Part shown: positions 2,695 through 15,922 of the stretch, piece after piece
Layout of the letters: each line of letters starts with the position of its first letter
Position numbering within the stretch: the first letter of the stretch is position 1
Source: a virus
Direction: 5' to 3' (one strand)
DNA length: 20,068 bases
Virus record (IMG/VR): IMGVR_UViG_3300044960_000935
Location: 1-20,068 of that record
Made by a program: the position numbers and the translations under genes
Notes under the pieces: generated by a model
Told to the model about the DNA's origin: nothing
The model's input: only the letters and a program-made list of their open reading frames with translations
Databases searched by the model: none

Positions 2695-4687
2695 TCAGAG
2701 AGCGTTGCCGGTGACGGGGCCCGCGAAGGCGGAGAGGTTCCCCTGGGGCGAGACGCTGCGCAGCCAGAACCACCGCTGCTGGCCGGCAACCAGGTCGGTG
2801 CGGGTCCAGGGCAGCGCGGTCGGCTCGGCGGGGAGGTTCGCGGCGGCGAGGAGGTCGTTGGTCTCCGCCTCGAACACCTGCAGGAAGGCGGCTTCGCCCG
2901 GCAGGCTGCCAGAGATCTGGATGCCCCCCGGCAGGTCGGTCGCGGTCAGCCCGGAGGGCGGCGGCGGCACGAGCGCCTCGCGCCAGCCGGAGACGGCGCC
3001 GCTGCGCGCCTGCGCCCGCAGCCGGAAGGCGGTGGGCTCGGTGGTGGGGATGGTGGCGTGGGTGGCGCTGACCCCCGCGGCGAAGCCCTGCCAGAGGGCG
3101 ACGGAGGCCGGGCGGAACTCGACCTCGTAGCCGGCGAGATGGGTGGAGCCCACGGCGGACCAGGCGATGGCGAGCATGGCGAAGGCCACCGTCTGCGGCG
3201 TCTCGACCGTGAGGCTGTCCGGCGCGGCGATGACGCCCGGCTGCGGCAGGACCACCGAGGGGCTGTCGCCGGTCGCGCGCTCGTCCGTGGCAGGGTCCCA
3301 GTCCCACACCGCCGCATCCTCCTCGGCCAGCGTCAGGTCCACCCCGCCTTCGGGCGCGAGGCGCCAGCCGACCACCCGCGCCGGGAAGCGTCAGCCGGTC
3401 GAGGGCCACCATCACCCCGTCCCAGGGCCGCAGGCGGAGGGCGGAGAGGGTCATCTCCGCCACCACCACGCGCTGGCGGCGGTTGCGCTCCAGCTCGATC
3501 TTCATCAGCCGCTGGACCATGGCGGGCGAGGTGGTGAGCGGGAAGTCGAGGTCGCGCCAGATCTGCTCGCCCCCGTCCTCGGCGACGTAGTTGGAGGCCA
3601 GCAGCGGCGGCGCGTCGGTCGGCTGCCAGTTCTTGGCCGGGTCGACGTAGACGGCGCGCACCCCGTTGAAGAGATCGCGCCGCGGGCGCGCGCCCTGCAC
3701 GGTCACGCTGCCGCGCAGCTCGGCCGAGGTGACGGTCGCGGCCGGCAGGGCGGGGGCCCCGGCATGGATGAAGAACCGCCCGCCCGAGACCACGAGCACG
3801 CCGGCCATGGCAGCCACGATCTTACGGGTGATCTCGATCTTGCCCTCGGCGAGGGAGAGCGTGCCGTTGACGGTGTAGCGGCGCTCGGCGGTGCCGTCGC
3901 GGCGCCCGACGATCTCGTCGCAGATGTTGGCGGCGGCGATCAGGGAGGGCAGGTCGATGTCCTCCCAGGACGCTTTCCAGCCGAACGGCGCGGTCAGGTA
4001 CCAGGCGAGGCAGAGGGCCGGGTTGTCGGACCAGCCGACCTGGCCGGTGCGCGGGTCGAGGATGGTGTCCGCGCCCTCGACGATGGCGGAGACATTGGGC
4101 GGGCCGGAGGGGAAGGCCTCGGCGGTGAGCTTCAGCCGCAGCGCGATATAGGCCCGGCCACGCCCGCGATGATCGGCCGTCCACTTGCCCCCGGTCTCGG
4201 CGATGAGGTTGGCGTCCGCGGCCTGGTCGGGATCGCCAAGGTGGCGGTCGATGCGCACCAGCCCGGCGAAGGAAGGATCAGTCTCCGACTTGTCGCCGAG
4301 GAACACCTCGCCGATCGCGCGCACGCGGTGCGCGGCGAGCACCACCACCGAATAGAAGTAGCCATCGGTGCGGCCCTCGTCGTCGGCGGCCGAGTGCAGG
4401 AACACGATCGGCCCCGAGACCTTGGCGCGGCCGAGGACGATCTGGTGCTCGGTGATCGGCTGGCGGAAGGACTGGGTGCGCTGCTGCGCCTCCTGCGCTG
4501 TGGAGCCGCCGCTTCCGCCGCCGAGGGCGCTGTTGCGCGGGCGTTTCTGCGGGAAGATGGCCCCGCCGATGAGCGAGACGCCGATGGCTGCGCCGGCGCC
4601 GACGATGGCGCCGATGACGCCGCCACCAACCGCGGCCGAGACGGCACCGGCCGCGACCACGGCGATGAGGGGGACGGCGGCGGGCAT
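2695..4687 (-). CDS. J: Tail tip attachment protein (J-like), frameshifted near 3382
   Basis: Tail tip/host specificity protein in the lambda J position, between the DUF6950 gene and the spike. It starts at ATG 4687-4685 in a TGATG overlap with the upstream stop. The N-terminus is an Ala/Gly/Val-rich hydrophobic stretch (residues ~1-48), followed by a J-like core (ITEHQIVLGRAKVSGPIVFL, LCLAWYLTAPFGW). The frame runs well to VMVALDRLTLP, then decays into Arg-rich shadow sequence. The protein continues in another frame from RVVGWRLAPEGGVDLTLAEE to the stop at 2695 (GPVTGNAL), with fibronectin-like strand patterns. One extra G at about 3381-3382 explains the break; corrected length is about 663 residues. 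Uncorrected, the first frame runs on into the spike gene. It is either a real mutation that disables the tail tip or a sequencing error. Confidence 0.85.
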
Positions 4688-6322: not shown

Positions 6323-6335
6323 CCCCTCCTCCTTA
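6323..6335 (-). promoter_or_regulatory. Strong Shine-Dalgarno overlapping the tape-measure stop codon
   Basis: On the minus strand the tape-measure stop TAA (6335-6333) runs directly into AAGGAGGAGGGG, followed by CGCGC and the ATG of the distal tail gene. The stop codon therefore forms part of the ribosome site of the next gene, allowing terminating ribosomes to reinitiate. It fixes the start at 6317. Confidence 0.75.
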
Positions 6336-8489
6336 CCCCCTGACGGTGTCGTAGGCCGCGCCGCCGCGGCGGATGGCATCCAGCGTCATCGCCGAGGCCT
6401 GGCGGGCGATCTGCCCGGCGAGCAGCCGCAGCCGCGCCTCGACGCCGGCATCGGCCCCACGCGCGTCGATGTTGATGGTCTGCTGGATGGTGGTGCCGGC
6501 CGGCGCCACGCCGTTCGGCAGCACCACGCCCGACTGGCGGGGGACGAACCACTCCGGCCCGCGCTCGCCGACGATGTAGGGCTGGCCGGCGGTCACCGGG
6601 CCGCCCTCCGCCCGAAACAAGCCACTGATCCAGGAGCCGATGCTGTCGAACACGCTGCCGAAGGAGAACCCCGACAGCGCGCCGGTCAGCGCATGGCCCA
6701 AGGGCTCAGTGATGGTCCGCCGCGCGATGATGCGGGCGATGTCCTGGGCGATGCCCTTCAGCACCTCCGAGAGCTTCGCGCCACGAACCACCGCGTCCTC
6801 GAAGGCGGAGGAGAAGGTCAGCCCGAGTTCGCGCGCGGTATCGGCGGCGCGTTCGGTCGCGCGCTGCACGCGCTCCTGGCCGCGCTCCAGCTCCTCCAGC
6901 GCGGCATCGGCCTCGCGGGCGATGGTCTCATCAGGGATGGAGACTCCCAGCCGCTCGGCGCGCTCCACCAGTATGCCGAGGTTGGACAGGCGCCGCTGGT
7001 AGCGCTCATAAGCGTTCTCGTTCTGCTGGATCAGGCGCTCGCGCTCGCGCAGCACCTCGTTCAGCTCGCGCTCGGCCTCGCGGTTGTCGCGCTGCGCGGC
7101 GGCAACGCGCCGGACGCTGCCCTCGAGGCGGCGCAGCGCCTCGTCGCGCTCACGCACGGCCAGGGCCTCGAGGCGCTGGCGCTCGGCGGCGTCGATGGTG
7201 CCGGCGGCCTCCGCCTCGCGCAGCCGGCGGAGGCGCTCCTCGTATTGCTGGGTGATCCGGAAGCGATCGTCGAGCTGACGGGTGAGTTCCTCCACCTCCT
7301 GCGCCGCGCGGCGGCGGCGGGCGTCGGCGGCCTGCTGGCCGGCGCGCTCCTGCTCCTCGATGCGGCGGACCACGGCCTCGCGCTCCGCCGCCTCGATCTC
7401 GGCGAGGATTTCGAAGTATTGGCGACGCAGCTCCTCCAGACGCGCACGCGCATCCACGCCCGCCTTCTGCTCGGCGATGCCGGTCAACCCGGGACGGAGG
7501 CTGCCGCGGCGGGGCGGCGCGCGCAGGCTGGGGCGGCCGTCCTGCTCGCTCTCCAGCCGGCCGATCTGTGTGGACAGCGCCTCGGCCTGGAGGCGGAGGT
7601 CGGCGAGGCGCTCCGCCTCGGTCCGCAGCCCGGCACCCTGGCGCACGCTGTCCAGCGCGCGCGCGGCGGTCGAGAGGGCCCGGGCGAGGGCGTCGGAGAG
7701 GCCGACGGCGCGGTCGAGCTGGCCGAGGAAGGTCTCGGTCGCCGCCGTGAGTTGCCCGAAGGCGCGGGACAGCGAGAGCGGCGCGCGGTCGAGCTCCGCG
7801 CCGAGGCGTTCACTCGCGCGGAGCAGCGCCGGAAACACCCGGTCGGCGGTGAGTCGGCCCTCGGAGCCGAGCCTGCGCAGCTCGCCGACGGAGACCCCGA
7901 GCTCGCGCGCCAGGGCCTCGGCGAGCAGCGGCATGGCCTCGAGGACGGAGCGCAGCTCGTCGCCCTGCAGCGTGCCGGAGGCCAGCGCCTGGGCGAGCTG
8001 CAGCGTGGCGCTGCCGATCTCCTGTGCCGAGGCGCCGGAGACGATGGCCACGCGCTGCAGGCCGGTGACCAGGCGCACCACCTGGTCGGAGGTGGCGCCG
8101 ATCTCGCGGGCCGCGATCGAAAAGCGCTGGAAGGCGTCGACGCTCTCGGCGACGGCGACGCCGGTCGAGAGCGCGTTGCGGTACAGCGCCTCGTAGACCG
8201 CGCTCGCGCGTTCGACCGAGCCGGTCGCGTTCTGCAGGCGGGATAGGCTCTGGGTGAGCGCGTCGCCGGCCTGGACCAGGACGCGGACACCAGCGGCGAG
8301 GCCGGCGAGCTGGATGCCGCGGGTGGCGAGGTCGAGCAGCTCGAGCGAGCGCGAGGCGCGCTCGGCGCCGCCCCTGATCTGGTCGAGGGAGCGCTGGCCG
8401 GCCTCGCCGACCTCGCGCAGCTCCTGCTTGACCCGGGCGGCGGCGTCCAGCGAGAGCCGCACCGAGACGCGACGGGTGGCATCGGCCAT
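6333..8489 (-). CDS. Tail tape measure protein
   Basis: A 718-residue protein that sets tail length and fills the tail tube before DNA ejection. The N-terminal ~270 residues match the tape-measure N-terminal domain (QNATGSVERASAVYEALYRN; the VSGASAQEIGSATLQLAQAL stretch; LRSVLEAMPLLAEALARELG). From about 280 to 570 it is a long Glu/Arg/Ala coiled coil. A hydrophobic Gly-rich segment follows (LGHALTGALSGFSFGSVF), then YIVGERGPEWFVP and VVLPNG, a common tape-measure C-terminal pattern. Using the general rule of about 0.15 nm per residue, the tail would be roughly 100 nm. The start at 8489 lies 1 bp from the stop of the GT extension, with a GGGGAG ribosome site inside that gene. Confidence 0.95.
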   Translation of the reverse strand: MADATRRVSVRLSLDAAARVKQELREVGEAGQRSLDQIRGGAERASRSLELLDLATRGIQLAGLAAGVRVLVQAGDALTQSLSRLQNATGSVERASAVYEALYRNALSTGVAVAESVDAFQRFSIAAREIGATSDQVVRLVTGLQRVAIVSGASAQEIGSATLQLAQALASGTLQGDELRSVLEAMPLLAEALARELGVSVGELRRLGSEGRLTADRVFPALLRASERLGAELDRAPLSLSRAFGQLTAATETFLGQLDRAVGLSDALARALSTAARALDSVRQGAGLRTEAERLADLRLQAEALSTQIGRLESEQDGRPSLRAPPRRGSLRPGLTGIAEQKAGVDARARLEELRRQYFEILAEIEAAEREAVVRRIEEQERAGQQAADARRRRAAQEVEELTRQLDDRFRITQQYEERLRRLREAEAAGTIDAAERQRLEALAVRERDEALRRLEGSVRRVAAAQRDNREAERELNEVLRERERLIQQNENAYERYQRRLSNLGILVERAERLGVSIPDETIAREADAALEELERGQERVQRATERAADTARELGLTFSSAFEDAVVRGAKLSEVLKGIAQDIARIIARRTITEPLGHALTGALSGFSFGSVFDSIGSWISGLFRAEGGPVTAGQPYIVGERGPEWFVPRQSGVVLPNGVAPAGTTIQQTINIDARGADAGVEARLRLLAGQIARQASAMTLDAIRRGGAAYDTVRG

Positions 8490-8490
8490 G

Positions 8491-8817
8491 TCAGGTGGTC
8501 TCCCCCTCGCGGCGGGCAGCAGCGCCCTCGGCCATGCCGACGCGGATCGCGAGCAGCAGTTCGGCGGCAGCCCAACCCATGGCGCCCAGGTCGCGCGCGG
8601 CGGCGAGAGCGGCCGGCATGTCCAGGCTCAGCCCGCCCATCGTGGCCTCGGCACAGGCCGTGCCGGCGGCCCAGCAGGCGTGCCCTTCGAGGCTGGTAGG
8701 CGCGTGCGCGGCGTAGGGGCAGGCCTCGGCGCAGTCGCGGGCGAGGGCCGCGCAGCCACGGCAGTATTCGGGCCCGCGGCCGAAGTGCCAGGCGGCGCGG
8801 GCCCTCAGCCGTTTCCC
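8491..8817 (-). CDS. T extension of tail assembly chaperone, made by -1 frameshift (GT protein)
   Basis: An open frame with no convincing start of its own, entered by a -1 slip at GGGAAAC (8817-8811) in the upstream chaperone gene. After the slip it adds 106 residues (starting RLRARAAWHF) and stops at 8491, 1 bp before the tape measure. This is the lambda G/GT arrangement, in which the rarer fusion binds the tape measure and tail tube during assembly. The extension has six cysteines in its first half: CRGC, then Cys at spacings of about 6, 3, 14 and 5. This suggests a metal site or disulfides and is followed by an Ala-rich helix. I do not recognise the T domain as a named family. The fusion would be about 228 residues from the 9182 start, or 236 from 9200. 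Confidence 0.8.
   Translation of the reverse strand, partial: GKRLRARAAWHFGRGPEYCRGCAALARDCAEACPYAAHAPTSLEGHACWAAGTACAEATMGGLSLDMPAALAAARDLGAMGWAAAELLLAIRVGMAEGAAARREGETT
8770..8817 (-). promoter_or_regulatory. Programmed -1 ribosomal frameshift element
   Basis: On the minus strand, heptamer G GGA AAC (8817-8811) is in the correct X XXY YYZ phase relative to the chaperone frame. A 6-nt spacer, GGCTGA (8810-8805), includes the zero-frame stop. Then GGGCCCGCG (8804-8796) pairs perfectly with CGCGGGCCC (8778-8770) across a 17-nt loop. Slippery site, spacer length and GC-only stem all match known -1 frameshift signals; lambda uses GGGAAAG at the same gene position. Confidence 0.85.
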
Positions 8818-9182
8818 TCGGCGACCACCGCGGCGACGGGGGCGGTGGCGCGGTCCCAGAAGGCGGCGGCGATGTCGTCGAGGTCCATCAGCCGCTCCAC
8901 CGCCTCGGGCGAGAGCGGCAGCTTCTGGCCGGCGGCGTCGCCCACGCCCTCCCAGGCGGTGACGGCGTGGCGAGCCAACGCCTTGACCAGGAAGGCGAAG
9001 GCCAAGCCGCGCGACATGTCGGGATCGAGGTCCTCGCCAGCGGCACGGATCGCGGCCAACTTTCGCGCGGCGGCCGCCTGCGCGGCGGCCATGACGGCGG
9101 TGGTCACGGGGCGGATCTCGACGCGCACGCCGCGCGGCAGGTCGAGCCAGTAGGGCTCGGTGGGGAGGTCGAGGGTGAGCAT
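8805..9182 (-). CDS. Tail assembly chaperone (lambda gpG analogue), zero-frame product
   Basis: A 125-residue protein located just before the tape measure, the usual site of the tail assembly chaperone that coats the tape measure and is absent from the finished virion. The chain begins MLTLDLPTEPYWLDLPRGV, has an Ala-rich helical middle (TTAVMAAAQAAAARKLAAI) and ends VAEGNG at TGA 8807-8805, three codons after the frameshift site begins. I prefer the ATG at 9182 because GGAGG lies 11 nt upstream; an ATG at 9200 would add six residues (MEGPYS) but has no clear ribosome site. The role is assigned from position plus the frameshift signal, since G proteins diverge strongly in sequence. Its start faces the Phd antitoxin gene, giving a divergent intergenic region of 54 bp. 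Confidence 0.8.
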   Translation of the reverse strand: MLTLDLPTEPYWLDLPRGVRVEIRPVTTAVMAAAQAAAARKLAAIRAAGEDLDPDMSRGLAFAFLVKALARHAVTAWEGVGDAAGQKLPLSPEAVERLMDLDDIAAAFWDRATAPVAAVVAEGNG

Positions 9183-9236
9183 GGAATAAGGACCCTCCAT
9201 GGGTTATGTATCTTGCAGGAACCAAGGAACCCCGCG

Positions 9237-9500
9237 ATGACCGAGCCGATGCTCAAGGTCCCGGCGGCCGAGGCGCAGCGGAACTTCGGCCTTTACCAGG
9301 ACAAGGCCCTCACCCAGCCCGTCGCCATCACCCGCAACGGGCGGCCACGAACGGTGCTGATCTCGATCGAGGAATACGAGCGCCTCAAGCGCCGCGACCG
9401 GCAGGTGGTGCGCACCGAGGACGCGCCGCAGGAGATCGTGGACGCCATCCTCGCGGCGCGGCCGCCAGAGGAGAACAAGCGCTTCGATCATGAGGTCTGA
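9237..9500 (+). CDS. Antitoxin, Phd/YefM family
   Basis: An 87-residue type II antitoxin that would neutralise the overlapping PemK-like toxin and repress its own promoter. The N-terminus is a Phd/YefM DNA-binding domain: LKVPAAEAQRNFGLYQDKAL, then VAITRNGRPRTVLISIEEYE (about residues 29-48), close to the family's hallmark RNGRPxxVLxSxxEYE. The charged C-terminus (APQEIVDAILAARPPEENKR) is the likely toxin-binding tail. The start at 9237 has AAGGAA 7 nt upstream; a longer open frame reaches back to 8967 but runs antisense through the chaperone gene and is rejected. An AT-richer tract (TTATGTATCTT, 9204-9214) sits where a promoter would be. It lies on the strand opposite to all the virion genes. 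Confidence 0.85.
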   Translation: MTEPMLKVPAAEAQRNFGLYQDKALTQPVAITRNGRPRTVLISIEEYERLKRRDRQVVRTEDAPQEIVDAILAARPPEENKRFDHEV

Positions 9501-9933
9501 CGCGCCGGCGCTGCCGGCTGTCGGCGACGTGATCCGCTACGCCTACCTCTGGAGCCACGAGCACGCGGCTGGACGAGAGGAAGGGTCGAAGGATCGTCCG
9601 GCCGCGGTGGTGGCCCTGGTTCGCCAGGAGGACGGCCATTGTGAGGTCGTCGTCCTGCCGATCACCTCTACCCCGCCGGACGAGCCCGGTGCGGCGGTCG
9701 AGGTTCCCGCCGAAACCCGCGCCCGCCTCGGCCTGCAACGGGAGCCGTGCTGGGTCGTGGTCACCGAGTACAACCGCTTCGTCTGGCCGGGGCCGGACCT
9801 TCGCCCCGTCGAAGGCGGCACGGGGCCGTTCACCTATGGCCCGCTGCCCGACCGGGTGATGACTGAGATCCGTGCTGCCTTCGCGGCGTGGCGGCAGAAG
9901 CGCCGCGTCGCCGCCATTCGGCGCACCGAGTAG
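9490..9933 (+). CDS. Toxin, PemK/MazF-like
   Basis: A 147-residue putative endoribonuclease toxin of the MazF/PemK superfamily. Features are the N-terminal GDVIRYAYLW strand, KDRPAAVVALV (about residues 34-44, equivalent to the GxxRPxvVl element of MazF), VVVLPITSTPPDEP (residues ~53-66, like the CPIT segment) and VTEYNRFVWPGPDL. It is longer than typical MazF (about 110) because of a loop around WSHEHAAGREEG and a basic C-terminal tail. It overlaps the antitoxin by 11 bp, a normal TA layout. Pairing a MazF-fold toxin with a Phd antitoxin is less common than with a MazE-type one. The stop lies only 3 bp from the stop of the convergent tail tube gene. It appears intact. Confidence 0.75.
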   Translation: MRSDAPALPAVGDVIRYAYLWSHEHAAGREEGSKDRPAAVVALVRQEDGHCEVVVLPITSTPPDEPGAAVEVPAETRARLGLQREPCWVVVTEYNRFVWPGPDLRPVEGGTGPFTYGPLPDRVMTEIRAAFAAWRQKRRVAAIRRTE

Positions 9934-9936
9934 GTC

Positions 9937-10896
9937 TCACGCATACTCGCTCGCCTGCTGCTGGTTCCGGAGCACCACGGTCATCATGCGGCCGGCGGAG
10001 CTGTTGTAAGCGGCGCGGAACTCGAAGCTCGCCTCGACTCCTCCCGGCCCCTCGATCGGGGTCTTGGCGAGTGCCAGATAGACCTCGTGCAGGGTGAAGG
10101 TCAGGCTGCGGTTGGCGTCGATCGTGTAGCTGAAGGCGAACTCGGCTGGCGTGTTGTTCTGCGCCTGGGTCAGCAGCGTGGTGTCGGCGAAGCGCGCGGT
10201 GATCTGGCCGGTGGCGCGCGCGATGCCGGGATCCACCCCCTCCACCTTCCGGTCGGCGCGGATGGTGCGCACCATCTCCATCCCGTTGGCGTAGGTGAGC
10301 CGCGCCCCGGTCACCTGGGCGAGCGCGGAACCGTTGCGGCTGATCGCCCCTTGCGCCTTGTGGAAGGCGGTGTAGGCGGCGGCGCTGGTCGGCGTGCCGC
10401 CCGAGCTCGTGGCACCGCGCGTCGAGCCCTGGCCCATCAGCCCGAAGGTCGCGGTGGCGGGGCCGGTCGGCGAGAAGTCGATCTCCATCGTATCCGCGCG
10501 CACGCCGGTGCAGAGATCGTAGTTCGGCACGTCGGGATAGCCGATCTCGATGCTGTTCGAGGGCAGCGCCGCGGCGCCCGAGCCGAAGGTATGGACGAAG
10601 TCCGGGCTGGTGCCGGTGGTGGTGGGTGCCCCAAGCAGCAGGCGCAGCCAGTGGCCGATGTTGACGAGGTCGACCGGCACCACCGCCTGGCCCTGGACGG
10701 TGACGGTGTCGAGGAAGGGCGCGGCCGGATCGCGGCTGGAACCCACGCCGATGACGTCGGCATCGAGCAGCGGCTGCTCGGCGCCGAGGTCGCAGGAGAG
10801 GAAGGGCATGCGCAGCCAGTCGCCCGCGGGGGCGGTACCGTAGGTCGCCTCGGGGATCATGAGCAGGCGGCAATTGGCGCCGATGGCACGGGGCAT
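9937..10896 (-). CDS. Major tail tube protein
   Basis: A 319-residue structural protein predicted to polymerise into the tail tube. The N-terminus is RAIGANCRLLMIPEATYGTA, followed by DADVIGVGSSRDPAAPFLD and VDLVNIGHWLRLLLGAPTT; these are recognisable features of long phage tail tube proteins with pre-strand insertions. The C-terminal half is beta-rich (ARATGQITARFADTTLLTQA; LHEVYLALAKTPIEGPGGVE; AAYNSSAGRMMTVVLRN). Its place upstream of the chaperone and tape measure is the standard siphovirus order. The start ATG at 10896 has only a weak ribosome site. The gene that should precede it, the tail terminator, is reduced to a fragment. Confidence 0.85.
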   Translation of the reverse strand: MPRAIGANCRLLMIPEATYGTAPAGDWLRMPFLSCDLGAEQPLLDADVIGVGSSRDPAAPFLDTVTVQGQAVVPVDLVNIGHWLRLLLGAPTTTGTSPDFVHTFGSGAAALPSNSIEIGYPDVPNYDLCTGVRADTMEIDFSPTGPATATFGLMGQGSTRGATSSGGTPTSAAAYTAFHKAQGAISRNGSALAQVTGARLTYANGMEMVRTIRADRKVEGVDPGIARATGQITARFADTTLLTQAQNNTPAEFAFSYTIDANRSLTFTLHEVYLALAKTPIEGPGGVEASFEFRAAYNSSAGRMMTVVLRNQQQASEYA

Positions 10897-13168: not shown

Positions 13169-13227
13169 GGATGGGTCTCCTGCGGTGGGTGGAGGCGCGG
13201 CGCGGCTTGAAGTCCGGCCAGTCGCGC

Positions 13228-13239
13228 GTTACATGTAAC
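13228..13239. promoter_or_regulatory. Perfect palindrome upstream of mazE, candidate autoregulatory operator
   Basis: GTTACATGTAAC is a perfect 12-bp palindrome in the 89-bp divergent gap, 18 bp before the mazE start. It is AT-rich in otherwise GC-rich DNA. MazE or MazEF complexes typically bind such sites near their own promoter. The site could also affect the DUF2190 side. Confidence 0.5.
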
Positions 13240-13257
13240 CCGGTGTTGGAGGTACCG

Positions 13258-13506
13258 ATGCCCGGCTCCGAAGTCCGCAAGCGGGTCGCCGCCCATCGTG
13301 CCGCGCTGCGCCGGCGCGGGCTGCGACCGATCCAGATCTGGGTGCCGGATACCCGCGCTCCCGGCTTCGCCGAGGAGGCGCGCCGTCAGTCGCGGCTGGT
13401 CGACGCCGACCGCGCGGAATTCGACGATGTGATGGGGTTCATCGAGCGCAATTCCGCCTGGCCGGAGGATGACAGCGACGTCCCCGACTACGATGCGCCG
13501 CGGTGA
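13258..13506 (+). CDS. mazE: Antitoxin, MazE family (DUF3018 type)
   Basis: An 82-residue antitoxin of the DUF3018/MazE-like family. The hallmark is VRKRVAAHRAALRRRGLRPI followed by QIWVPDTRAPGFAEEARRQS (about residues 26-45), then an acidic, likely disordered toxin-binding tail (WPEDDSDVPDYDAP). The start ATG 13258 is set by GGAGG five bases upstream. The frame could open earlier, at 13171, but that would cross the palindrome and lacks a ribosome site. It overlaps the toxin by 14 bp and is encoded opposite to the virion genes. Confidence 0.88.
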   Translation: MPGSEVRKRVAAHRAALRRRGLRPIQIWVPDTRAPGFAEEARRQSRLVDADRAEFDDVMGFIERNSAWPEDDSDVPDYDAPR

Positions 13507-13825
13507 TGTCGTTCTCGTCGCCGACCGTGACGGTGGTGACTATGCGGGCAAGCCTCGCCCGGCGGTGGTGATCCAGTCCGATCTCTACGACCAGACGCTG
13601 AGCGTCGTGGTCTGCCCGGTGACCTCGGTGCCGAAGGATGCGGGTCTGCTGCGGGTGCCGCTGTTGCCCAGCGACAGCCTGGCGCTGCGGGCACCGAGCT
13701 GGGTGATGGTGGACAAGCTCACCAGCATCCGGCGGGATCGGGTCGGAGGCGTGATCGGCCGCATCTCGGACGACGAGGCGTTGGCGCTGAACCGCAGCCT
13801 CGCCGTGTTCCTGGGCTTCGCCTGA
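13493..13825 (+). CDS. mazF: Toxin MazF, mRNA interferase
   Basis: A 110-residue sequence-specific endoribonuclease of the MazF family, of normal length. It has MRRGDVVLVADRDGGDYAGK (the RGDvv start), KPRPAVVIQSDLYDQTLSVV (residues 20-39, with the conserved RPaVViQ), VCPVTSV (about 41-47) and PSWVMVDKLTSIRRDRVGG (about 68-86), the known MazF core including the catalytic-region Arg and Thr positions. It looks intact. Its TGA (13823-13825) directly abuts the stop of the convergent capsid gene, the two together making TGATCA, so no terminator fits between them. Confidence 0.92.
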   Translation: MRRGDVVLVADRDGGDYAGKPRPAVVIQSDLYDQTLSVVVCPVTSVPKDAGLLRVPLLPSDSLALRAPSWVMVDKLTSIRRDRVGGVIGRISDDEALALNRSLAVFLGFA

Positions 13826-15922
13826 TCAGGTCCCCGGGTTGAACCAGGCGCCGCGCCAGTCGATGGCGCCGACACCGAAGTCGAAGATCACGCTGACCTC
13901 GACGCCGTCCGCGCCCTGCACCGGGCCGGTGGTGACCTGCGGTCCCTCGGCGCCGTTGAGGTAGCCGTAGACATAGACCGGTGCCGCGACCGGGTCGGAG
14001 AACAGGTACCAGCGGTTCGCCCCGATCAGCGGCTCGATCACCGGCTGCACGAAGCCGGCAAAGACATTCGCCTTGCCGATCTCGCTCGCCTGCACGACCA
14101 CGGTCGCCTGGCGCGCCGCGAGCTCGAGGTTCGGCCCGACCAGCAGGCGCATGGTCTGGCCCATCGAGATCGGCAGGCCGTCGAGCGTGCGCTGCTTCAT
14201 GATGGCGGCGCGGCCGGCGCCGATGGTCGCGGTGTCGAGCGGCGTGCCGGTGCCGGCCTTGTTGGCGCGCGCGGCAGCGGTGCCGAACACCGCGGCGCTG
14301 CCGGTGGCGAGCGTCGGACCGTCGCCGTTGGCGCTGTTGAGCAGGTTGTAGGCGGTCGCGTTCTCGAACTCGGCGACGCGGCGGCCGATGGCGGCGGCGA
14401 AGTCGGTGAAGGCGCCAAGATCATCGTTGACCAGCATCGGCCGCGTCACGCGCAGGCGCCGCGCGAAGGTCTGCAGCAGCACGATCTCCTGGCTCTCGGA
14501 CATGGTGCCGACCTGGATCTCGCCGTTCTCGGCGAGCGGCAGCAGGGTCGGGAAGTCGCCGATGCGCAGGTGTCGGTGCGGCTTGAAGTCGCGGAAGTCG
14601 CGGCGGAGGAAGATCTGCCGGTAGGTCGGCTGCGCCGGCTGATAGGCGGCGAGCAGCATCTTGTTGGCGGCGGCCGCCAGTAGCAGCGGGAAGTCGGAAC
14701 TGGTGTGGAAGGCGCGCTCGGCGAGCAGGGTCGGGTTGCGCGGGACCTGGCGATCGCCGCGCAGGCGGAGGAGCTCGCCGATCATGTCGGACGGGCGCCA
14801 GCCCAGGAACTCCGCATGGCGGCCCTCCCCGCGCGGCTGGTAGCCGGGCATGGCGCGGGCGGCGATGGCCTCGGCCATGGCGTCGAGGATCTGCGCCGGG
14901 TCGTCGTGGCCGGGGCCGGTCTCGGGGCGCGCCGGAATGGACGGGCGGGGCCCCTGCGCCACCAGGGCGTCGAACAGGGCGCGGCGGGCCTGGTCGCCGG
15001 TCCAGCCGGCCGCGATGGCCTCCGCGCGGATCGGGGCGATGCGCTCGGGCGGCAGGAGGGCGCGGGCCGCCTCGACCGCGGCGTCGATGCCGGCGATGCG
15101 TTCGCGCTCGGCGCGCCGGGCCTCGGCGCGCACGGCATCGAGATCGGGCGCCGGCACGGCCGGTGGGGGCGCGGACGAGTTGGCCGGTGCGGGGCTGGCG
15201 GTCACGGTGGTCTCCTGGGGCGGGGTGGACGGCGCAGCGGAGGGCGGCGCCGACAGGGCAGCAGCCGGGGTGTCCGGCGTCGTCTCGGGCATGGTGGTGT
15301 CCTCGTCGGGCAGGGCGGGTTCGATCGCGATGGCGGGCGCGCCCTGCGGCGCCTCGCCACGCACCGCCGCATCCCGATCCACCGGGACCGGCACGACGGA
15401 GATCTCGAAGGGTTCCCAGTCCACCGCGCGGTGGATGGTCTCGCCGGTGGCGGGGTCGGCGCGCGGCTCGTAGCGGTGCACGCGATAGCCGACGCTCACC
15501 GCCCGCAGCGTGCCGTCGGCGATGCGCTGCCAGACCGGCTCGACATCGGCCGCGGCGCTGAACTGCAGCGTGGCATAGCCGCGGCCGCGCTCGAGACGGG
15601 CGGCAGTGACGCGGCCGAGCACATCGCGGGCATCGCCGCGGCGGTGGGTGTTCAGCACTGGGGCCTGGCCGGAGCGGAGCGCCTCCATGCGCACCGCGTT
15701 CGGGGACATCTCCAGCTCCTCGGTGATCAGGCCGAGGGCGGGGACGAAGTTGCGGGCCCGCGCGCCCGTGCTCCACACCACCTCGACGGTGCGGGCGGCA
15801 CGATCCACGGTGGCGGGCGCGGTGATGGCGCGCTGCGCGACCAGGGGAATGTCCCCGGCCATCGGCGCAACAGCAGGCTCCGGCGCGGCATCACTGCCGC
15901 CCGGCTCGGTGGTTTCGGTCAT
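13826..15922 (-). CDS. Prohead protease / major capsid protein fusion
   Basis: A 698-residue polyprotein combining scaffold protease and capsid subunit. Residues ~30-200 are an HK97-type U35 prohead protease: QAPVLNTHRRGDARDVLG with catalytic His93, LRAVSVGYRVHRYE with Ser143, and FEISVVPVPVDRDA. Residues ~200-290 are a Pro/Ala-rich linker that may act as scaffold. The rest is a HK97-fold capsid protein (FLGWRPSDMIGELLRLRGDR; QTFARRLRVTRPMLVNDDLG; SVIFDFGVGAIDWRGAW near the end). Lambda and HK97 use separate genes, but this fusion is a known class in proteobacterial phages. The protease would cleave itself away during head maturation. The start ATG 15922 is 50 bp from the portal stop and has a modest AGGG site. 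The C-terminus looks complete despite the abutting mazF. Confidence 0.93.
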   Translation of the reverse strand: MTETTEPGGSDAAPEPAVAPMAGDIPLVAQRAITAPATVDRAARTVEVVWSTGARARNFVPALGLITEELEMSPNAVRMEALRSGQAPVLNTHRRGDARDVLGRVTAARLERGRGYATLQFSAAADVEPVWQRIADGTLRAVSVGYRVHRYEPRADPATGETIHRAVDWEPFEISVVPVPVDRDAAVRGEAPQGAPAIAIEPALPDEDTTMPETTPDTPAAALSAPPSAAPSTPPQETTVTASPAPANSSAPPPAVPAPDLDAVRAEARRAERERIAGIDAAVEAARALLPPERIAPIRAEAIAAGWTGDQARRALFDALVAQGPRPSIPARPETGPGHDDPAQILDAMAEAIAARAMPGYQPRGEGRHAEFLGWRPSDMIGELLRLRGDRQVPRNPTLLAERAFHTSSDFPLLLAAAANKMLLAAYQPAQPTYRQIFLRRDFRDFKPHRHLRIGDFPTLLPLAENGEIQVGTMSESQEIVLLQTFARRLRVTRPMLVNDDLGAFTDFAAAIGRRVAEFENATAYNLLNSANGDGPTLATGSAAVFGTAAARANKAGTGTPLDTATIGAGRAAIMKQRTLDGLPISMGQTMRLLVGPNLELAARQATVVVQASEIGKANVFAGFVQPVIEPLIGANRWYLFSDPVAAPVYVYGYLNGAEGPQVTTGPVQGADGVEVSVIFDFGVGAIDWRGAWFNPGT

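Follow-up and report, generated by a model that had tools for sequence, protein, structure and literature searches.

The window analysed here is the whole of a virus record, 20,068 bases in length, and the locus described lies on its minus strand. The hosts of the source phage are Roseomonas-like bacteria (Acetobacteraceae). Although the initial annotation had stated no strand, all the signal elements that it named were present and all of them were on the minus strand. In window coordinates, the genes and features of the locus are:

9937..10896, minus strand: tail tube protein, 319 aa (Phage_tube_2, PF18906, E=2.2e-55)
8805..9182, minus strand: G, the zero-frame product of 125 aa, a tail assembly chaperone (PHROG 313)
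8811..8817, minus strand: slippery heptamer G_GGA_AAC, in phase; 239/245 relatives have the identical heptamer in this position
8805..8810, minus strand: spacer of 6 nt, GGCTGA, whose TGA (8807..8805) is the zero-frame stop
8770..8804, minus strand: predicted stimulatory hairpin of 9 bp, arms 8804..8796 and 8778..8770
8491..8811, minus strand: T, the -1 frame extension, 106 codons plus stop, with CxxC-x6-CxxxC and a C-terminal half similar to DUF7697 / PHROG 11212
6333..8489, minus strand: tape measure protein, 718 aa (TMP_3, PF20155, E=3.3e-50; PHROG 339, E=2.6e-58)

G is flanked by the tail tube gene (Phage_tube_2) upstream and the tape measure gene (TMP_3) downstream, which is the classic place of G/GT in siphophages. 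It matched PHROG 313 'Tail assembly chaperone' with E=4.6e-16, as did 13/13 of the relatives searched, and a fold comparison with viral structures returned the phage Molivia tail assembly chaperone as a weak match (E 3e-3). The start of G at ATG 9182 was supported by the relatives; GGAGGG at 9193-9198, 10 nt upstream of this ATG, is likely its ribosome-binding site, and an alternative upstream ATG lies at 9200. The 3' end of G reads GTC GCC GAG GGA AAC GGC TGA, giving the phase GA[G|GGA|AAC]|GGC|TGA. The initial annotation had claimed a G_GGA_AAC in the correct phase and a 6-nt spacer carrying the zero-frame stop, and both were found, at 8817..8811 and 8810..8805, respectively. The coordinates also agreed with its -1 frame of 106 codons: the frame goes from CGG (8811) to TGA (8493..8491) with sense codons throughout, and the tape measure ATG follows at 8489 after a gap of one base. 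The fusion, put earlier at about 228 residues, has a predicted length of 230 (124 + 106) because G starts at ATG 9182. Among 3075 codon positions in nine minus-strand genes, an in-phase X_XXY_YYZ (Y = A/T) occurred only once.

Downstream of the spacer, GGGCCCGCG (8804..8796) pairs with CGCGGGCCC (8778..8770) with 17 nt between the arms, which is the perfect 9-bp GC stem and 17-nt loop that had been proposed. RNAfold placed three further inner pairs (CCG/CGG) past a 1-nt bulge (one bulged C), and the MFE of the hairpin was -25.8 kcal/mol, with z = -2.3 against shuffles. Perfect stems of at least 9 bp at a spacing of 5-9 were found at 0.5% of minus-strand positions. The hairpin was also considered as an intrinsic terminator, and this was rejected since no U run is present.

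Relatives were gathered by scans with G and with T of IMG/VR contigs and of bacterial genomes, the host-genome relatives coming from Falsiroseomonas, Neoroseomonas, Siccirubricoccus, Roseococcus and other Acetobacteraceae. In 239/245 junctions GGGAAAC was in phase and preceded the WHFG Trp codon by exactly 27 nt, and a zero-frame stop (TGA or TAA) followed two codons past the heptamer in 238 of the 245 relatives. The initial annotation had suggested aligning homologues, and had held that homologues lacking the heptamer or the downstream frame would speak against a frameshift; in the alignment, heptamer and spacer were retained at these frequencies and the T frame was conserved as a protein. 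A few distant relatives carried other shifty heptamers, AAAAAAC (three) and AAAAAAA (one), and one contig (L161) had GCCAGAC close to its edge. Two further exceptions were seen. L012 has GTGAAAC (4366-4372) plus a premature zero-frame stop, and L157 (2974-2990) keeps GGGAAAC with the nearby zero-frame stop gone and the next one 67 codons on. Therefore, some natural copies either manage without the precise signal or reflect decay or sequencing errors, and L012 and L157 would be useful natural mutants, decayed copies or errors. GGA was used at 108/108 of the distinct GGGAAAC sites examined, yet it makes up 1.6% of Gly codons in the relatives' G and T, where AAA accounts for 4.3% of Lys codons. 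Judged from this codon usage, the slip signal is maintained against codon bias.

Similar support was obtained for the hairpin. In the relatives its mean energy was -25.0 kcal/mol, versus -20.9 kcal/mol in synonymous recodings of the same region (mean z -1.5), whereas seven control positions recoded in this way gave mean z from -0.5 to +0.7. Rare codons were frequent at the pairing positions: GGG was used in 51% and CCT in 44%, against a background in the relatives' G and T of 2.8% of Gly and 4.6% of Pro codons, respectively. The relatives fell into two stem registers, class A (that of the window) and class B. In register A (61 sequences), 90.9% of cells were paired and five cells were compensatory, a result reached by 0/500 shuffles; in class B, 95.1% of cells were paired, and covariation was looked for in this register and none was seen. 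Pairing collapsed when the register was slid, and part of the hairpin is already forced by the amino-acid sequence alone. Thus, the expected conservation of the stem held in that relatives retain a hairpin, but it is often in another register and not the same 9 bp. A downstream RNA structure is not present in every member of the G/GT chaperone frameshift family.

T is under purifying selection: dN/dS was 0.23 in the T frame and 0.18 in G, compared with 1.7 and 1.5 in the remaining two frames, and stop codons within the T frame were found in 0/180 sequences. When the T frame was read from the nearest stop upstream as far as Cys19, 109/187 distinct junctions contained no ATG, GTG or TTG, and slippage is therefore the only ordinary way into the T frame in these. 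The earlier claim that T has no start codon and is missed by automatic annotation was thereby upheld for the start codon in these junctions; annotation usually loses or truncates T and does not always miss it. For example, the annotated T of a Nostoc phage begins internally, 42 codons into the frame, with the cysteines left off.

T might also be made separately by internal initiation and not be fused to G, in which case its DUF7697 half could start at an ATG at T residue 60 (window 8640, minus strand). This ATG is conserved in 224 relatives, with GAGG upstream of it in the window and a Shine-Dalgarno-like core in 99/225 sequences, and both DUF7697 and PHROG 11212 span only the C-terminal half of T. 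However, the most conserved part of T, with WHFG and the four cysteines, lies upstream of any start and could not be initiated in the startless junctions, and the invariant slip site with its rare codons would be left without a reason; we regard separate synthesis of T as improbable. It is possible that a short extra product corresponding to the DUF7697 half is made from the residue-60 ATG alongside the fusion. The second frame could alternatively be reached by slippage of the polymerase instead of the ribosome, and distant relatives do contain A runs, A8 in the Nostoc phage and A7 in a faecal phage contig. The GGG AAA run, however, is too short for efficient polymerase slippage, and a downstream hairpin would be needless for it, so that transcriptional slippage seems very improbable. 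A sequencing error or a decayed gene can be dismissed with near certainty. Errors often produce such frame breaks, and L012 may be a decayed copy, but hundreds of independent assemblies share the identical break to the base; a stop intervenes, purifying selection acts on either side, and the relatives refute this reading.

We conclude that the locus is very probably a programmed -1 ribosomal frameshift in the tail assembly chaperone gene of a siphophage. The site, its phase, the spacing, the hairpin and the selection on both frames are shown by the comparison of related sequences; we infer slippage itself and its efficiency, and, by analogy, the roles of G and T. Most ribosomes would terminate at TGA 8807 and release G (125 aa). 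A minority would pause at the GC hairpin while GGA-AAC is occupied by tRNA-Gly and tRNA-Asn; a one-base backward slip to GGG-AAA and continued reading from CGG would result in the G-T fusion of 230 residues. By analogy with lambda, G would coat the tape measure protein, and a few copies of G-T would bring in tail tube subunits via T.

The four cysteines of T (Cys19, 22, 29 and 33) were invariant in 136/136 distinct close relatives, and four cysteines with similar spacing were also present in relatives from Rhodobacter, Nostoc and faecal phages. They probably bind a metal. The AlphaFold model of T was mainly helical with pLDDT 86, falling to 63-78 around the cysteines, and this dip would fit a metal missing from the model. 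The C-terminal half of T matched the Pfam family DUF7697 (PF24752) in 7/14 relatives (best E 2.9e-16) and PHROG 11212 in 9/14 (best E 4.4e-16); T of the window itself scored 15.2 bits against DUF7697, below the curated cut-off of 27. Both models cover 52-55 positions and leave out the cysteine-bearing N-terminal half, a truncation that probably stems from gene callers choosing an internal ATG as the start. Besides DUF7697, the only Pfam match of T was a weak one to DUF1799 (E=0.058). A search of solved structures with the T profile found none (best E 0.61), and Foldseek/VIA against PDB gave chance-level matches only and no solved fold. Among viral folds, T had weak matches only, including tape measure chaperones of the phages Scapp (E 0.56) and Shivani (E 4.9), and relatives of T sought in plasmid records were not found.

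The region between the tail tube gene and G (window 9183-9936) was hypervariable. Among 195 relatives having both genes, the gap was about 0.6-3.9 kb in 183 and held nothing in 12, where the tail tube stop adjoins or overlaps the ATG of G. ORFs of at least 70 aa in the gap fell into 181 families, and the opposite strand encoded about 70% of their residues. When 74 representative opposite-strand ORFs were searched with PADLOC and Pfam, matches included PtuA (Septu), HEC-06, PD-T4-6 and GmrSD restriction, as well as caspase, patatin, protein kinase and toxin-antitoxin proteins. The gap looks like a hypervariable hotspot for defence or other cargo inside the tail operon; as a cargo site it would be more striking than the frameshift itself and merits separate study. 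In the window, the plus-strand region 9237-9933 in this gap carries a Phd/YefM-type antitoxin (PF02604, E 1.5e-14) and a PemK-like toxin (E 0.0013, below the cut-off), and 19 relatives have the antitoxin at the same site and 18 have the toxin there. A second toxin-antitoxin pair, MazE-like (PF11455) and PemK (PF02452), was seen elsewhere in the window at 13171-13825 on the opposite (plus) strand, just past the end of a 698-aa ORF at 13826-15922.

The last base of the slip site may be related to the lysine tRNAs of the host. In E. coli, AAG heptamers are highly shift-prone and A_AAA_AAC is less so, and roughly half of bacteria possess just one lysine tRNA (PMC5009743). tRNA-Lys(CUU) was found in 6/7 Acetobacteraceae genomes tested, the seventh simply having no exact match to the search pattern. 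The window site may end in AAC, and not in the AAG of lambda, owing to a dedicated tRNA-Lys(CUU) in these hosts: this tRNA would hold AAG and resist slipping, as its CUU anticodon would pair poorly with AAA after the slip, and AAC may then be the better second codon. We tentatively propose, as an idea somewhat short of probable, that T represents a previously undescribed four-cysteine metal-binding class of T in phages of Acetobacteraceae, Rhodobacter and cyanobacteria, and that the last base of the slip site could be predicted from the tRNAs of the host, AAG not being slippery where tRNA-Lys(CUU) is present. In the open papers to which our search was limited, no description of this T class or of the tRNA rule was found. 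The rule is testable in linking the last slip-site base to host lysine tRNAs. Furthermore, the series of more than 100 distinct signal sequences is among the best-sampled natural sets for the phage tail chaperone frameshift, the orphan Pfam family DUF7697 is tied to the T half of a tail chaperone, and the two chaperone frames should be joined in the annotation of Acetobacteraceae prophages.

The tail chaperone frameshift is conserved in long-tailed phages, including gpG/gpGT of lambda (reviewed in PMC5009743), and our comparison with lambda draws on this review and general knowledge. Shared with lambda are the location of the gene between those for tail tube and tape measure, an X_XXY_YYZ near the end of G, the -1 shift and a C-terminal T extension. 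The G/GT logic suggested by the initial annotation was thus supported by gene identity, gene order, slip site and a conserved T frame. Unlike in lambda, C is the last base of the window heptamer, which is followed by a strong GC hairpin with the stop lying inside the spacer; sequence searches with T found no known lambda-type T family. The heptamer had indeed been noted to end in C instead of G, but GGGAAAC at this gene has a precedent: G_GGA_AAC is present at the tail chaperone gene of HCTV-1 (PMC5009743), and AAAAAAC, likewise ending in AAC, at those of Acinetobacter phage Loki (PMC5313236) and IME_AB3. HCTV-1 and Loki have unrelated hosts and are likened here by the AAC ending of the heptamer. 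Also close are the Rhodobacter capsulatus phages RcKemmy and RcMeacham and their relatives, which have the identical GAG-GGA-AAC site, a 6-nt spacer and a hairpin, together with a homologous G (35-38% identity) and a T likewise with WHFG and four cysteines. They differ in the stem sequence (10 bp, at the same 6-nt spacing) and in the zero-frame stop, which comes about 30 codons further on, and therefore the spacer normally holds a stop but need not do so. The R. capsulatus phage paper regards the tail chaperone frameshift as usual, and the chaperones of RcKemmy and RcMeacham are already annotated as a joined CDS. Since joined chaperones are annotated in these homologous phages, the locus represents the known G/GT device of lambda and not a new mechanism; what is added is one more well-supported case, together with the four invariant cysteines of T, the DUF7697 identity of its C-terminal half and the proposed link between AAC and the host lysine tRNAs.
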